Assembly (NCBI GenBank): GCA_016188575.1
Contig: JACPHN010000178.1
Coordinates: 1 to 33,834 of the forward strand
DNA length: 33,834 nucleotides
Reading direction: 5' to 3'
DNA from: Candidatus Schekmanbacteria bacterium
GTDB lineage: Bacteria; CSSED10-310; JACPHN01
Below, in pieces: positions 2,528 to 19,581 of this stretch. The position numbers and the translations under genes are program-made. Every line of letters begins with the position of its first letter. Position 1 is the first letter of the stretch. Under the pieces are notes generated by a model. The model was not told the DNA's origin, made no database searches, and saw nothing but the letters and a program-made list of their open reading frames with translations.

Positions 2528-4450
2528 TCAGGCGCCCGCCCAACCCGGGTAGACGCCCAGCACCTTCAAGCGCGTCGTCGCCTGCTCCAGCTCGCTGCAC
2601 AGCTCCGCCCCCAGCAGCCCCAGGAAGTCGACGTAGAAGTAGTATTCCCACGGCTTCCCCGGAATGGGTCGGGACTCCAGCTTGACCAGGTTGATACGGT
2701 GGCGCGCGAAGACCGCGAGCACTTTCAGGAGCGCTCCCGGTTCGTCACACGTGGCAAAAACCAGTGACGTCTTGTCGGCGGCCGCCAGCGGTGGCGCGGG
2801 CGCGCCGATCACCAGAAACCGCGTGTAGTTGCACGCGTGGCTCTCGATGCCGGCGAGCAGCACCTGGCCGCCGTACTCGCTCGCCGCGGCGCGGCCGGCG
2901 ATCGCCGCCGCATCTCGCAGGCCCTCCTGCAGCACCATCCGCACACTGCCCGCCGTATCGTAGACCTGATAGACCGTCCATTCCGGGTGCGCGCGCAGAA
3001 GCTGCTCGCACTGCGCCGCCGCCTGTGGATGGGCGTACACTCTCCGGATGTCCGCGAGCGTCACCCCGGGCGCGGCGATCAAGTTGTGCACGACGCGCAA
3101 GCGCGTTTCGGCGAGAATCTGGACGTCATACTCCAGCAGGAGATCGTAGTTGATGTGAATGGATCCGCCCAGGGTGTTCTCGATCGGGACGATTCCATGG
3201 CGCGACTTTCCCTCGACCACCGCCGCGAAGACGTCGCGAAACCCCGGGCAGGGCAGGCTCGTCGCAGCGCTGCCGAAGACCTGATGCAGCGCCTTTTCGC
3301 TGAAGGCGCCGTGCTCCCCCTGAAAGGCCACGTCGATTACCGGTGCCGTGGTCGCCGCCGCAGTTGCGACCGCAACCGGTCCCGCCGGCGGTGGCGCGCC
3401 GTGAGCTCGGCGGATTGCCGGGCGCATGGTTTCGCGGTCCAGCGCTCGTCCCACCACCGGTGAGATTACCTGCAGGTCGCGCAAGAGCTCGGCGAGCTCC
3501 TGGAAATCGAGACTTTGCGGGCCGTCCGAGATCGCGTTGTCCGGGTCGGGATGCGCCTCTACGAGAATGCCATGGGCCCCCGCCGCGATCGCCGCGCACG
3601 CCATCGGGATGACGTAGCGGCGCACCCCGGTGCCATGGCTGGGATCCACGAGGATGGGCAGATGCGTGCGCTCGCGCAACACCGGTATAGCGTTGAGATC
3701 CAACGTGTTGCGCGTCGACGGCTCGAAGGTCCGGATGCCGCGCTCGCACAGGATCACGGAGCGGTTGATTCCTTCCGCGAGCACGTATTCGGCGCTTTGC
3801 AGCCACTCGTCCACGGTGGCGGCGAGCCCCCGCTTCAGCACGACCGGCTTGTCGATCTGCGCGCACGCCTTGAGCAGGTCGTAGTTCTGCATGTTGCGGG
3901 CGCCGATCTGCAGCGCGTCCACGTAGCGCGCGACGAGCTCGACCGCCCCGGCGCTCATCACCTCGGTCACGACCGGCAGGCCGGTCTCCGCGGAAACTTC
4001 TGCGAGAATCTTCAGGCCGTCCTCGCCGAGCCCCTGAAAGGAATACGGCGACGTGCGCGGCTTGAACGCGCCTCCGCGCAACATCGACACGCCGAGCTCG
4101 GCGCAGCGCCGGCCGGTCTCCCGCATCATTTCCAGGCCCTCGACCGCGCACGGGCCGGCGATTACGACCACCCGCTCACCGCCGATCTCGACCCCGCCGA
4201 TGCGGACTACGCTGTCGCTCGGACGGACCTCGCGGCTGGCCAGCTTGTACGGCCGCCCGACGCGCAGCACCTGGACCACGCCGGCGAGCGGACGGAGCTC
4301 CTCCGGATCGAAGGACGGCTTGCCCAGGACGGCCAGAATCGCGCGTTCCGACCCCTCTATGAGCAGCGGGGCGCAGCCGAGGTGGCGAACCTTGGTCTCG
4401 ATGGCCTGACGTTCGCTGTCCGTGATCCCCGGCCTGAGCACGATGATCAT
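2528..4450 (-). CDS. Fusion of DAHP synthase (type I-beta) and prephenate dehydratase with ACT domain
   Basis: One 640-residue chain. Residues 1-70 are the ferredoxin-like regulatory domain of type I-beta DAHP synthases. Residues 75-335 are the TIM barrel that joins phosphoenolpyruvate and erythrose-4-phosphate: GPCAVEG with the metal-binding Cys101, FKPRTSPYSFQG, VLKRG, TRNTLDL, DPSHGTG and EAHPDPDNAISDGPQSL are all present. An Ala/Pro linker (about 350-370) leads to prephenate dehydratase (372-550), which makes phenylpyruvate, with VPIENTLGG and the active-site motif TRF (543-545). The ACT domain (560-636) carries GALLKVL and KLESRP, the phenylalanine-binding signatures. No chorismate mutase domain is present. 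The ATG at 4450 follows the small secreted-protein gene by 33 bp. Both allosteric modules suggest control by aromatic amino acids at two steps. Family calls are firm; the fusion itself is unusual. Confidence 0.95.
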   Translation of the reverse strand: MIIVLRPGITDSERQAIETKVRHLGCAPLLIEGSERAILAVLGKPSFDPEELRPLAGVVQVLRVGRPYKLASREVRPSDSVVRIGGVEIGGERVVVIAGPCAVEGLEMMRETGRRCAELGVSMLRGGAFKPRTSPYSFQGLGEDGLKILAEVSAETGLPVVTEVMSAGAVELVARYVDALQIGARNMQNYDLLKACAQIDKPVVLKRGLAATVDEWLQSAEYVLAEGINRSVILCERGIRTFEPSTRNTLDLNAIPVLRERTHLPILVDPSHGTGVRRYVIPMACAAIAAGAHGILVEAHPDPDNAISDGPQSLDFQELAELLRDLQVISPVVGRALDRETMRPAIRRAHGAPPPAGPVAVATAAATTAPVIDVAFQGEHGAFSEKALHQVFGSAATSLPCPGFRDVFAAVVEGKSRHGIVPIENTLGGSIHINYDLLLEYDVQILAETRLRVVHNLIAAPGVTLADIRRVYAHPQAAAQCEQLLRAHPEWTVYQVYDTAGSVRMVLQEGLRDAAAIAGRAAASEYGGQVLLAGIESHACNYTRFLVIGAPAPPLAAADKTSLVFATCDEPGALLKVLAVFARHRINLVKLESRPIPGKPWEYYFYVDFLGLLGAELCSELEQATTRLKVLGVYPGWAGA

Positions 4451-14928: not shown

Positions 14929-15723
14929 GTGGACTATGATGGTGTTACGCTCAGCTACCGGTGCGACAAGCGCCTGTTGTCGCCCGTCGTTCGCCACTGC
15001 CTGGTGCCCGTGGCGTGCGATGAGCCGGTGCTCGCCTTTCTCGACCGATACCACCGCAGGCCCCACGGATTCGCGCGCACCCTCCTTCATGGATTGCTGC
15101 GGCTGCTCGTGTCGGACTTCGACGCGAACGCGATTCTCGCGATGTATCCCCTGCACCTGCTCGCGACCGGCCAGTGGCAGGCGCTCCTCGGCGGCCGCCC
15201 CGGAGGGCACCTCCTGGATGTCGGAGCGGGCTCGGGGGAGGTGACCTCAACACTCGCACCGCTCTTCGATGACATCCTGACAACCGAGGTCTCCCGCGCC
15301 ATGGCGTGGCGCCTCGGTCGCCGCGGGTTCCGGTGCCTGCGGATGGACGTCGCGACGGCGCAGATCGCGCTTCCGCCCAGCGACGTGGTGAGCTGCCTGA
15401 ACGTCCTTGATCGCGCGTCACGCCCGCTTTCCCTGCTGCGGGCAATCCGCGGCATGCTCGCGCCCGGCGGGCGCCTCGTCGTCGCTCTCCCGCTCCCGGC
15501 CCGCCCGTGGACGTATCACGGAGCGCAGATCGCCGCGCCCGAGGAGGAGCTGGGGTGCGGGGCGCCAACGTTCGAGGAATCCGCGTCGCTCTTCGCCGAG
15601 GCGGTGCTCGCGCCTGCCGGGTTCACCGTACAGGCGTTTACGCGGGCTCCGTACCTGTCGCGAGGCGATGCGGCGCGGGCGCTGTACGTGCTCGACGACG
15701 CGATCTTCGTGGCGGCGGGGTGA
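14929..15723 (+). CDS. DREV/METTL9-like SAM-dependent methyltransferase
   Basis: A class I methyltransferase of about 264 residues. It carries motif I as LLDVGAGSGEVT and then a series of matches to the animal DREV/METTL9 family that extends past the generic fold: TTEVSRAMAW (METTL9 has ATELSETMIW), DVVSCLNVLDR (DVISCLNLLDR), VVALPLP, FTRAPYLSRGD (FTRLPYLCEGD) and YVLDDAIFV (YVLDDAVFV). METTL9 methylates histidine N1 in alternating-His (HxH) protein segments; a protein-histidine substrate here is inference. The start is uncertain: the frame is open back to 14716, but that part holds repeat copy 3, so GTG 14929 or TTG 14914 is preferred. It stands alone, followed by a transposase remnant. Confidence 0.85.
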   Translation: MDYDGVTLSYRCDKRLLSPVVRHCLVPVACDEPVLAFLDRYHRRPHGFARTLLHGLLRLLVSDFDANAILAMYPLHLLATGQWQALLGGRPGGHLLDVGAGSGEVTSTLAPLFDDILTTEVSRAMAWRLGRRGFRCLRMDVATAQIALPPSDVVSCLNVLDRASRPLSLLRAIRGMLAPGGRLVVALPLPARPWTYHGAQIAAPEEELGCGAPTFEESASLFAEAVLAPAGFTVQAFTRAPYLSRGDAARALYVLDDAIFVAAG

Positions 15724-17259: not shown

Positions 17260-19581
17260 TCAGCGCCCGCCGAGTCGCCGCCAGAGCCGCTTCAGGCGGA
17301 GCGCGGCCGTGAAGCGATATTTGAGCGCGCGGTAGGCGAAATAGTGGAAAGGTCGAAAGCGGGCGCCGGCGTAGGCTGCGATGAAGCGGTGTTGAAGAGC
17401 GCGGGGGATGCCCAGCCGCACCAGGTCGGCGACGCCGCGGAGCAGACCGACGGGTGGACGCACGCGCGCGCGGTTGAGATCGACGAATGAGAAATGAACG
17501 GCCTTTGCTTCGTTCACGGACACGAGGACGTTGCCATCGGACAGGTCGCGGTGAAGAAAGCCTGCGGCGTGCAGCCGGCGCAGCTCAGGTGCCAGCGCGA
17601 CCGCCGTGAGCTCGGGATCGAGGTCGGCGCGCTCACCCAACCAGACGCTTCTCGCCGTCGGGGTCTCGCCCGCGTCTTTCGAGACGTAGTAGGCGTCGAT
17701 GACCATGCCCAGAAAGCGGCGTTCGCAGTAGCCGAGCGGCATCGGTGTCGCTTCACCCCGGGCATGGAGCCAGCATCCGACGCTGAAGGCCCGGCGTGCC
17801 TTCGAGTGAGACCAGAGCGTCCGTAGGCGATCCCAGGAGCGATCATAACGGAATCGCTTGACGACGGCGCTGTCGGGCCACCCGCCAAAGGAGGCCGGCA
17901 GCGCCAGGCGGACAAGGCGGTTTCGCGCATCGTGGAGGACCTGCGCGGGGAAGCCCGAAGTAGTGGAGGCCTCGCGGTTTTCGACCAGAGCCGGTAACCG
18001 GTCGACGAGCCACCGCAGCTCCGACTCGTCCGGGCCGACCAAGAAGGTTCCGGAGATCGAGCGGTCGCGGATGCGGCGGTAGCTCGCCGGCACGGGTGCT
18101 GCAGGGCGGGGCGCTTGCGGGCGGCGCGCGGGGCGGCGCCTGGACCCCGCGACCAGAGTATGTATGCCCCCTGCCGAAACGATGTAGGTCGGCGATGGCC
18201 CGAGAGGAATCTCCATTCCCGGTCGCGCGGCCTCGCTTCCCTGTCGGTCGCACACGCTCAGAGGGGCGCGTTCGCACACGAGCGCCGGACGGAAGTCCCG
18301 CCGAGGGCGGTGGCCGGCCCATGCTACGAGGCGGTCGGGTCCGCCGGTGGGATCGCGAAAATGTAACGCGAGGGCCCCACCGAGATCGGTGCGGTGAGAG
18401 AAGGTGCAGCCGCCGAGCGCCTCACGCAGGGTTCGCAGCGCCGCGAAGGCCGGCCGGCGGTGCCAGTGCTCCGGAGAGATCACGCTACCGCGCTCGTCCT
18501 GCTCGGAGACGAGCCCATAGCCGCGCGCCACGAGCTGCCACCAGTAGACGCGCTCCACCATACCGCTGCCGAGTGCGAGAAGATGATAGCGCACGAGATA
18601 ATCCGCGTACGTCTCCGGGTCGACCTCGACGGCGCCTGCGGCCGGGGCGAAATCGCCGTGGCCGGCAAGCGGCCAGTTGACCTCGGTGATCCAGGCAGTG
18701 CCGACCTCATGACCCGCACCGGCGCCGATAGCGGCGAGCAGCGCGCACTTGTCGACCATCTCGGTCCCCCAGTGCCGCCATTCGGGGGCACCCTGGCGAT
18801 CGACGTAGAGCTGGGCCCCGAGCTGATCGAATGACGGGCAAAGCGCGAGCTGCGCCCGGTTCAGCGCCGCGAAGATGGCGAGGTGGTAATGAAACTCAAA
18901 GTCCAGAACCGGTGGACCGACGAGGCGCACGGCCGGATGGTCGGCGCGATACTGCAGCGCCGGTGCGAGCAGACGCAGGTATTCCTCGACGGTCCACACG
19001 CCCCACTTCTTGCGATTGATGGCCTGACCGATCTGGAAGCACGCGCACCGCCCGGCGTACCGGTCGAGGATGGCCGTTACCCCCTCGGCCCAGGCCGCTT
19101 GCCGGACGATCGCATCGCGATCCTGCGGAACCGCGATCACGACCTCGGCTCCAGCCGCAAGGAGATGTTCGACTAGCGCGTGCTGCGCGCCGGCTTCCGA
19201 GTCGGAATACGCGCAGTCAGCGCCCGAGCGGTACGGCACGCGCACGAGGGCCTTGTTGAGGTCGAGCTCGCGCAGCAGCGCCACGGTTGCCGTCGCCGTC
19301 CCCGGCACCGCGGTGCACCCCATCGCGAGTCCGTCGCGCAGAGGGGCGGAAAGCGGAAACCGAAAGGCCTCCTGCCGCAGGCGAGCGAATCGCACGAGCG
19401 CCGCGGGAAGTTGTTTCAGGCAGTCGGCAGCGAAACGCAGATGGTGGGGCGCGTCCCCAAGAGATTCGACGATCCGCTCACGTTCGCTCAGGACCACGTC
19501 CGGCTGCGCGGCCCTGGGATTCCAGGAAAACTCGTCTCGTCGCGACGGTGCCGCGGGCGGTCTTGCGGGGGCTTCTGGCAT
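17260..19581 (-). CDS. Glycosidase-like TIM barrel fused to WaaP/Kdo-kinase-like domain
   Basis: A 773-residue, two-part protein without a signal peptide. Residues about 80-440 look like a clan-A glycoside hydrolase barrel: AWITEVNWPL puts a candidate nucleophile at Glu300. Where the acid/base 'NE' would be expected, the chain reads FQIGQAINRKKWGVW (about 182-196), so that residue seems absent or moved. Residues about 560-720 are a small kinase of the lipopolysaccharide Kdo/WaaP/InaA kind: VVKRFRYD with the lysine, then HRDLSDGNVLV (about 677) and FSFVDLNRARV with the metal-binding Asp. The C-terminus is strongly basic. A role in modifying a glycolipid or surface glycan is inferred. The start lies 20 bp past the pilin terminator with no clear Shine-Dalgarno, so it could be somewhat downstream. 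Confidence 0.75.
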   Translation of the reverse strand: MPEAPARPPAAPSRRDEFSWNPRAAQPDVVLSERERIVESLGDAPHHLRFAADCLKQLPAALVRFARLRQEAFRFPLSAPLRDGLAMGCTAVPGTATATVALLRELDLNKALVRVPYRSGADCAYSDSEAGAQHALVEHLLAAGAEVVIAVPQDRDAIVRQAAWAEGVTAILDRYAGRCACFQIGQAINRKKWGVWTVEEYLRLLAPALQYRADHPAVRLVGPPVLDFEFHYHLAIFAALNRAQLALCPSFDQLGAQLYVDRQGAPEWRHWGTEMVDKCALLAAIGAGAGHEVGTAWITEVNWPLAGHGDFAPAAGAVEVDPETYADYLVRYHLLALGSGMVERVYWWQLVARGYGLVSEQDERGSVISPEHWHRRPAFAALRTLREALGGCTFSHRTDLGGALALHFRDPTGGPDRLVAWAGHRPRRDFRPALVCERAPLSVCDRQGSEAARPGMEIPLGPSPTYIVSAGGIHTLVAGSRRRPARRPQAPRPAAPVPASYRRIRDRSISGTFLVGPDESELRWLVDRLPALVENREASTTSGFPAQVLHDARNRLVRLALPASFGGWPDSAVVKRFRYDRSWDRLRTLWSHSKARRAFSVGCWLHARGEATPMPLGYCERRFLGMVIDAYYVSKDAGETPTARSVWLGERADLDPELTAVALAPELRRLHAAGFLHRDLSDGNVLVSVNEAKAVHFSFVDLNRARVRPPVGLLRGVADLVRLGIPRALQHRFIAAYAGARFRPFHYFAYRALKYRFTAALRLKRLWRRLGGR

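Follow-up and report, generated by a model that had tools for sequence, protein, structure and literature searches.

The reading frame at positions 14929–15723 of the window (the whole stretch of DNA analysed, 33,834 nucleotides) encodes a full-length bacterial member of the METTL9 family, as judged from sequence searches and a structure model. With a probability of roughly 0.65, we take its product to be a protein methyltransferase of this family (DREV in Pfam) that uses SAM and would act on N1 (pi) of a histidine; the target would lie in a short HxH-like stretch of at least one bacterial protein.

14929..15723, + strand: METTL9/DREV-family methyltransferase gene, 264 aa, predicted GTG start (basis: Pfam, PDB sequence matches, codon usage and structure model)

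Identification of a bacterial METTL9-family protein

The frame stays open 5′ of the GTG codon, and homologues also start near the same point. Codon usage at 14929–15723 speaks for a real gene. Pfam analysis of the 264-aa protein ranked PF05219 (DREV) first with an E-value of 2.2e-43 and 148.7 bits (curated cut-off 26 bits), covering the full length of the model (positions 2–262 of 265). The second family followed at 1.2e-11, with generic methyltransferase domains at 1e-11 and weaker. The DREV profile thus leads the next family by more than 30 orders of magnitude, in agreement with an earlier note on this DNA that had assigned the gene to this family and had named a different family in first place as evidence against its reading.

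When compared with all PDB sequences, the protein matched human METTL9 entries best (3e-37 to 9e-37), and together with the METTL9-like enzyme of Ostreococcus (3e-28) these were the only strong matches. Sequence identity is 40% to human METTL9 over the aligned core and 35% to the Ostreococcus tauri enzyme (PDB 8bvi), while the human and Ostreococcus enzymes are 39% identical to each other. The earlier note had pointed to three METTL9-like blocks, DVVSCLNVLDR, FTRAPYLSRGD and YVLDDAIFV, and all three are indeed present and align in order with the human protein. Given the PF05219 E-value and the position of METTL9 at the top of the PDB search with 3e-37, this match is far beyond chance.

Structure model

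An AlphaFold2 model was calculated from the 264-aa protein and four bacterial relatives (mean pLDDT 88.9, pTM 0.89). Foldseek returned nine METTL9 chains and the Ostreococcus enzyme at the top (E 1e-26 to 1e-20), followed by NNMT at 2e-9. With VIA-align the model superposed on the METTL9–peptide complex with Z 34.1 and 1.6 Å over 252 of the 264 residues, from residue 8 on, and on the Ostreococcus enzyme with Z 30 over 260 residues. The first chain that is not of METTL9 type scored Z 16, and OvoM and OvsM, among the nearest folds after METTL9, scored Z 15. The model therefore matches human METTL9 far better than any other methyltransferase. Since 252 residues superpose at 1.6 Å, the likeness to METTL9 extends beyond the Rossmann core to the N-terminal helices. 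Together with the full-length PF05219 match, this confirms that it is wider than the SAM-binding fold, as had been proposed.

Pocket and substrate-reading residues

The contact residues of human METTL9 were used as given in PMC10073072 and PMC12269839, and were located in the 264-aa protein as follows (METTL9 numbering in brackets).

15127..15153, + strand: N67–L75 (N118–M126), edge reading x of HxH; from an alignment of 50 bacterial members with the human and Ostreococcus enzymes
15286..15288, + strand: E120 (E174), SAM ribose ligand; from the alignment and the human contacts
15382..15414, + strand: DVVSCLNVLDR with N158, D161 and R162 (N210, D213 and R214), target-histidine pocket; from the alignment
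15490..15492, + strand: P188 (V241), which stacks on the target imidazole and is Pro in most bacteria; from the alignment
15637..15669, + strand: FTRAPYLSRGD with Y242 (Y295), S244 (C297) and D247 (D300); from the alignment
15685..15711, + strand: YVLDDAIFV with Y253 (Y306) and L255 (L308), cleft that takes the first His of HxH; from the alignment

Mutation of E174 abolishes activity in the human, fly and Ostreococcus enzymes, and D213 of METTL9 holds N3 of the target ring (PMC10073072, PMC12269839). D300 and Y306 are required for peptide binding by human METTL9 (PMC10073072). All of the SAM and target-histidine residues (E174, N210, D213, R214 and Y295) are kept in the 264-aa protein, among them the four that hold the substrate histidine in METTL9 (N210, D213, R214 and Y295), whose loss the earlier note had named as evidence against its reading. 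The HxH and backbone subsites D300, Y306 and L308 are likewise kept, as D247, Y253 and L255. Of the positions in contact with x, N118 is kept, and R123, G124, M126 and C297 are replaced by M72, Y73, L75 and S244, respectively. Further differences from METTL9 are R114 to D, V241 to P and Y302 to A.

Among the 50 full-length bacterial members E174, D213, R214, P294, Y295 and G299 are invariant, and L308 (49/50) and N210 (48/50) are nearly so. In two members from Polyangia (L072 and L073) the N of position 210, a ligand of both SAM and the target ring, is changed to D. At position 114, 45 of the 50 have D; position 123 is M, T or A, and every member has Y, H or F at position 124. V241 is replaced by P in most of them. 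In the aligned bacterial members the catalytic pocket is hence conserved, and the wall next to the middle HxH residue is consistently different. Because of the D, M/T/A and Y/H found at positions 114, 123 and 124, the sequence accepted by the bacterial enzymes probably differs from that of the human enzyme.

Two groups of bacterial sequences

Twelve bacterial sequences form a group B with support 99/99, which has PYLCxG and in which nearly all members have D300 and Y306 replaced. The other 38, including the 264-aa protein, are referred to as group A, which is the remainder after removal of group B rather than a tested clade, and mostly keep both D300 and Y306. As group B has mostly lost these two residues, the bacterial branch is not under a uniform HxH constraint. 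The nearest tree neighbours of the 264-aa protein are L013 (Myxococcota) and L106, with weak support.

The human and Ostreococcus enzymes form a separate branch (support 100/99). AU tests rejected neither a topology with the bacteria as one clade (p 0.92) nor one with the eukaryotes beside group B (0.36). OvoA was tried as an outgroup and found too distant, which leaves the tree unrooted. With neither topology rejected and the root unplaced, ancestry and transfer are not separable, as the earlier note had remarked. The bacterial sequences provide material for asking where eukaryotic METTL9 came from.

Proposed function and alternatives

From the family membership, fold and residue conservation observed above we infer the chemistry, the N1 position and the protein nature of the substrate. 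In the proposed mechanism E120 and N158 would bind SAM. D161 would hold the target imidazole through N3, so that N1 stays deprotonated, and R162 and Y242 would stack on the ring. The histidine two residues before the target may pack against Y242, Y253 and L255, and D247 would pin the peptide backbone. The first rank of PF05219, the Z-score of 34 against 16, the pocket residues, the 40% identity to human METTL9, the shown activity of the Ostreococcus enzyme, the separate OvoA and the retention of D300 and Y306 count for this proposal; the x-reading edge that is altered in all bacteria and the change of V241 to P in most count against it. So do the loss of D300 and Y306 in most of group B, the absence of an HxH excess in 0.95 Mb of the genome and the absence from the window of a conserved substrate gene beside DREV. 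The idea that proteins are methylated on histidine in this bacterial group is accordingly upheld as far as family, fold and pocket go, whereas the modification itself lies beyond the evidence and the x-reading groove is altered. Histidine methylation of proteins may thus also occur in bacteria.

The foremost alternative, which we consider unlikely, is methylation of a small molecule that resembles histidine (histidine itself in free form, a dipeptide that contains it, or some other imidazole metabolite), similar to OvoA, OvoM and OvsM on thio- or selenohistidine. Outside METTL9, the ovothiol methyltransferase domain is the closest relative that acts on a histidine-type substrate. OvoA_Cterm (TIGR04345) is the best NCBIfam match of the 264-aa protein, although a weak one (5e-8) that stays below the cut-off with 32.7 against 170 bits. 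The closeness of OvoM and OvsM in fold fits this reading, as does an N-V-L-x-R element common to the protein and the genome's own OvoA, and a bulky Y or H at position 124 could leave less room for a peptide in the groove. The METTL9 fold match is, however, twice as strong and full length, and Y306, L308 and D300, which serve the second histidine and the backbone, are kept where a small-molecule enzyme would not need them. The genome moreover contains a complete OvoA of 815 aa on another contig (L127 2688–5135, − strand, contig C194; 240 bits to TIGR04345), and the organism probably makes ovothiol. The 264-aa protein was therefore rejected as the ovothiol enzyme itself, and an ovothiol role, the commonest small-molecule role, is unlikely.

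Somewhat less probable again is a METTL9-fold protein methyltransferase whose target is no longer HxH, so that histidine in another context or another residue would be modified. The bacteria-wide changes at the x-reading edge and the loss of D300 and Y306 in most of group B point in this direction, and specificity already varies among eukaryotic orthologues; in one assay, the enzymes from worm and slime mould were inactive on ARMC6 and DNAJB12, the standard human substrates (PMC12269839). Against this, the 264-aa protein belongs to group A and keeps D300, Y306, L308 and Y295. For this protein, methylation of histidine in an HxH-like segment remains the preferred reading.

Genomic context

The gene stands alone between the type II secretion genes GspC-F, a small unknown gene on the opposite strand, and PhoH, which lies 188 bases downstream. 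Within the window no conserved substrate gene adjoins it. PhoH is 55% identical to that of a genome of the same phylum compared with ∼44% to Myxococcota, and since this neighbour is closest to its own phylum the contig looks native.

Contamination is unlikely on this sequence evidence: that the gene is a eukaryotic contaminant or sits on a stray Myxococcota contig in the metagenome bin has only a very slight probability, for while the genome is a draft (275 contigs, 3.7% estimated contamination) and just one of the eight genomes searched from its phylum has DREV, the flanks are bacterial secretion genes and a PhoH of its own phylum, and the family is also found in the isolate Stenotrophobium and in Polyangia genomes of >10 Mb assembled as one contig.

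Elsewhere in the window, a 773-aa protein (17260–19581, − strand) has a C-terminal Kdo/WaaP lipopolysaccharide-kinase-like region and a long, unassigned N-terminal part that by eye is glycoside hydrolase-like. A 640-aa fusion (2528–4450, − strand) combines DAHP synthase, prephenate dehydratase and ACT domains, so that one protein covers the first step of phenylalanine synthesis and also a late one.

A universal partner gene was rejected, as DREV neighbours recur within lineages only. These lineage-local neighbours include a GMC oxidoreductase, a PhoX-like protein, DUF2752 and, by eye, Fe-superoxide dismutase. In five Polyangia loci (L072, L073, L077, L090 and L091) DREV is directly preceded, on its own strand, by a gene for the DUF2752-type protein, and those of the proteins that were read contain a PNPxGHGTH segment.

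Distribution

Narrow peptide patterns run against 84,980 species gave four full-length relatives: two in Polyangiaceae/Myxococcales bins, one in a Deltaproteobacteria bin and one in the isolate Stenotrophobium rhamnosiphilum. By profile search DREV was found in 23 of 377 genomes of the phylum Myxococcota, in 51 of 317 of the Polyangia-type class (that of L016; the label is taken from the names of member genomes, and a 52nd, short and generic match was left out), and in 1 of 85 from the order that includes Stenotrophobium. A broad sample of 385 other bacterial genomes contained no member. Two members (L072 and L073) sit in single contigs of >10 Mb from Polyangia.

Plasmid and phage collections contained no relative of the 264-aa protein. 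A mobile-element origin was rejected, the lone viral-contig match covering residues 95–192 at 28%.

In the literature searched, which left most subscription journals and preprints outside, METTL9 is described in eukaryotes only, with no bacterial members. A search of its full texts for PF05219 or DREV together with bacteria gave nothing relevant; a Borg paper naming PF05219 does so beside glycosyltransferase domains in one subfamily and has no bearing on the METTL9 branch. The bacterial branch is thus new in the literature sense only, and databases may already label bacterial entries DREV. With members known from an isolate and from genomes in one contig, it becomes possible to test whether bacteria contain protein 1-methylhistidine, and these members are further enzymes for work on specificity.

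Candidate substrates

The earlier note had suggested a search for proteins with repeated HxH segments. In 0.95 Mb of the source genome (about a tenth, 638 called proteins) no protein with a clear run was found. HxH segments with a small middle residue numbered 47 compared with 40 ± 6 in shuffled proteins, so that an HxH-rich proteome was dismissed for this part of the genome; the count neither names nor excludes a substrate.

DUF2891 (PF11199) is the next gene after DREV in four Polyangia loci (L084, L096, L097 and L098); the two genes share a strand and either overlap or are separated by no more than about 20 bases. The invariant motif of DUF2891, DWHSA(V/M)H(G/S)HW, matches the METTL9 target, having a small residue between two histidines. 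DUF2891 occurs in 17 of 40 DREV-bearing genomes and in 4 of 40 without DREV (Fisher p 0.002, kinship ignored). DREV and DUF2891 are therefore put forward, from sequence, as a candidate enzyme–substrate pair in Polyangia. DUF2891 was rejected as a general substrate: neither the source genome nor Stenotrophobium has it, DREV is retained in its absence (G061), and its HGH-type motif is no less conserved where DREV is missing. Being absent from the source genome, it is at most a lineage-specific substrate.

A wider scenario, which we regard as doubtful, is that bacteria, above all Polyangia, would have their own METTL9-type system for protein 1-methylhistidine with altered sequence reading, that in some of them DUF2891, encoded beside the enzyme, would be its substrate and be methylated in the HGH-type motif, and that the eukaryotic enzyme would then descend from the bacterial branch or go back with it to a very old common origin.

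Comparison with known systems

The OvoA C-terminal domain, OvoM and OvsM share the class I methyltransferase fold with the 264-aa protein and, like it, have N-x-x-x-R where the imidazole binds, but are only 15–20% identical to it at a Z-score of about 15. The genome's own OvoA is a separate gene and lacks the PYLxxGD and YVLDDAxFV blocks.

The Ostreococcus tauri enzyme, which makes 1-methylhistidine in DNAJB12 (PMC12269839), has Ser at the position of C297 just as the 264-aa protein does, but unlike it retains the eukaryotic residues R123 and G124 at the edge that reads x. With human METTL9, a protein-L-histidine N-pros-methyltransferase, the bacterial protein shares full-length homology, the fold, the residues for SAM and the target histidine, and D300, Y306 and L308. 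It differs in lacking the N-terminal stretch of the human enzyme, since it starts close to the domain, and in the residues at positions 114, 123, 124, 241, 297 and 302 (D, M, Y, P, S and A in place of R, R, G, V, C and Y).
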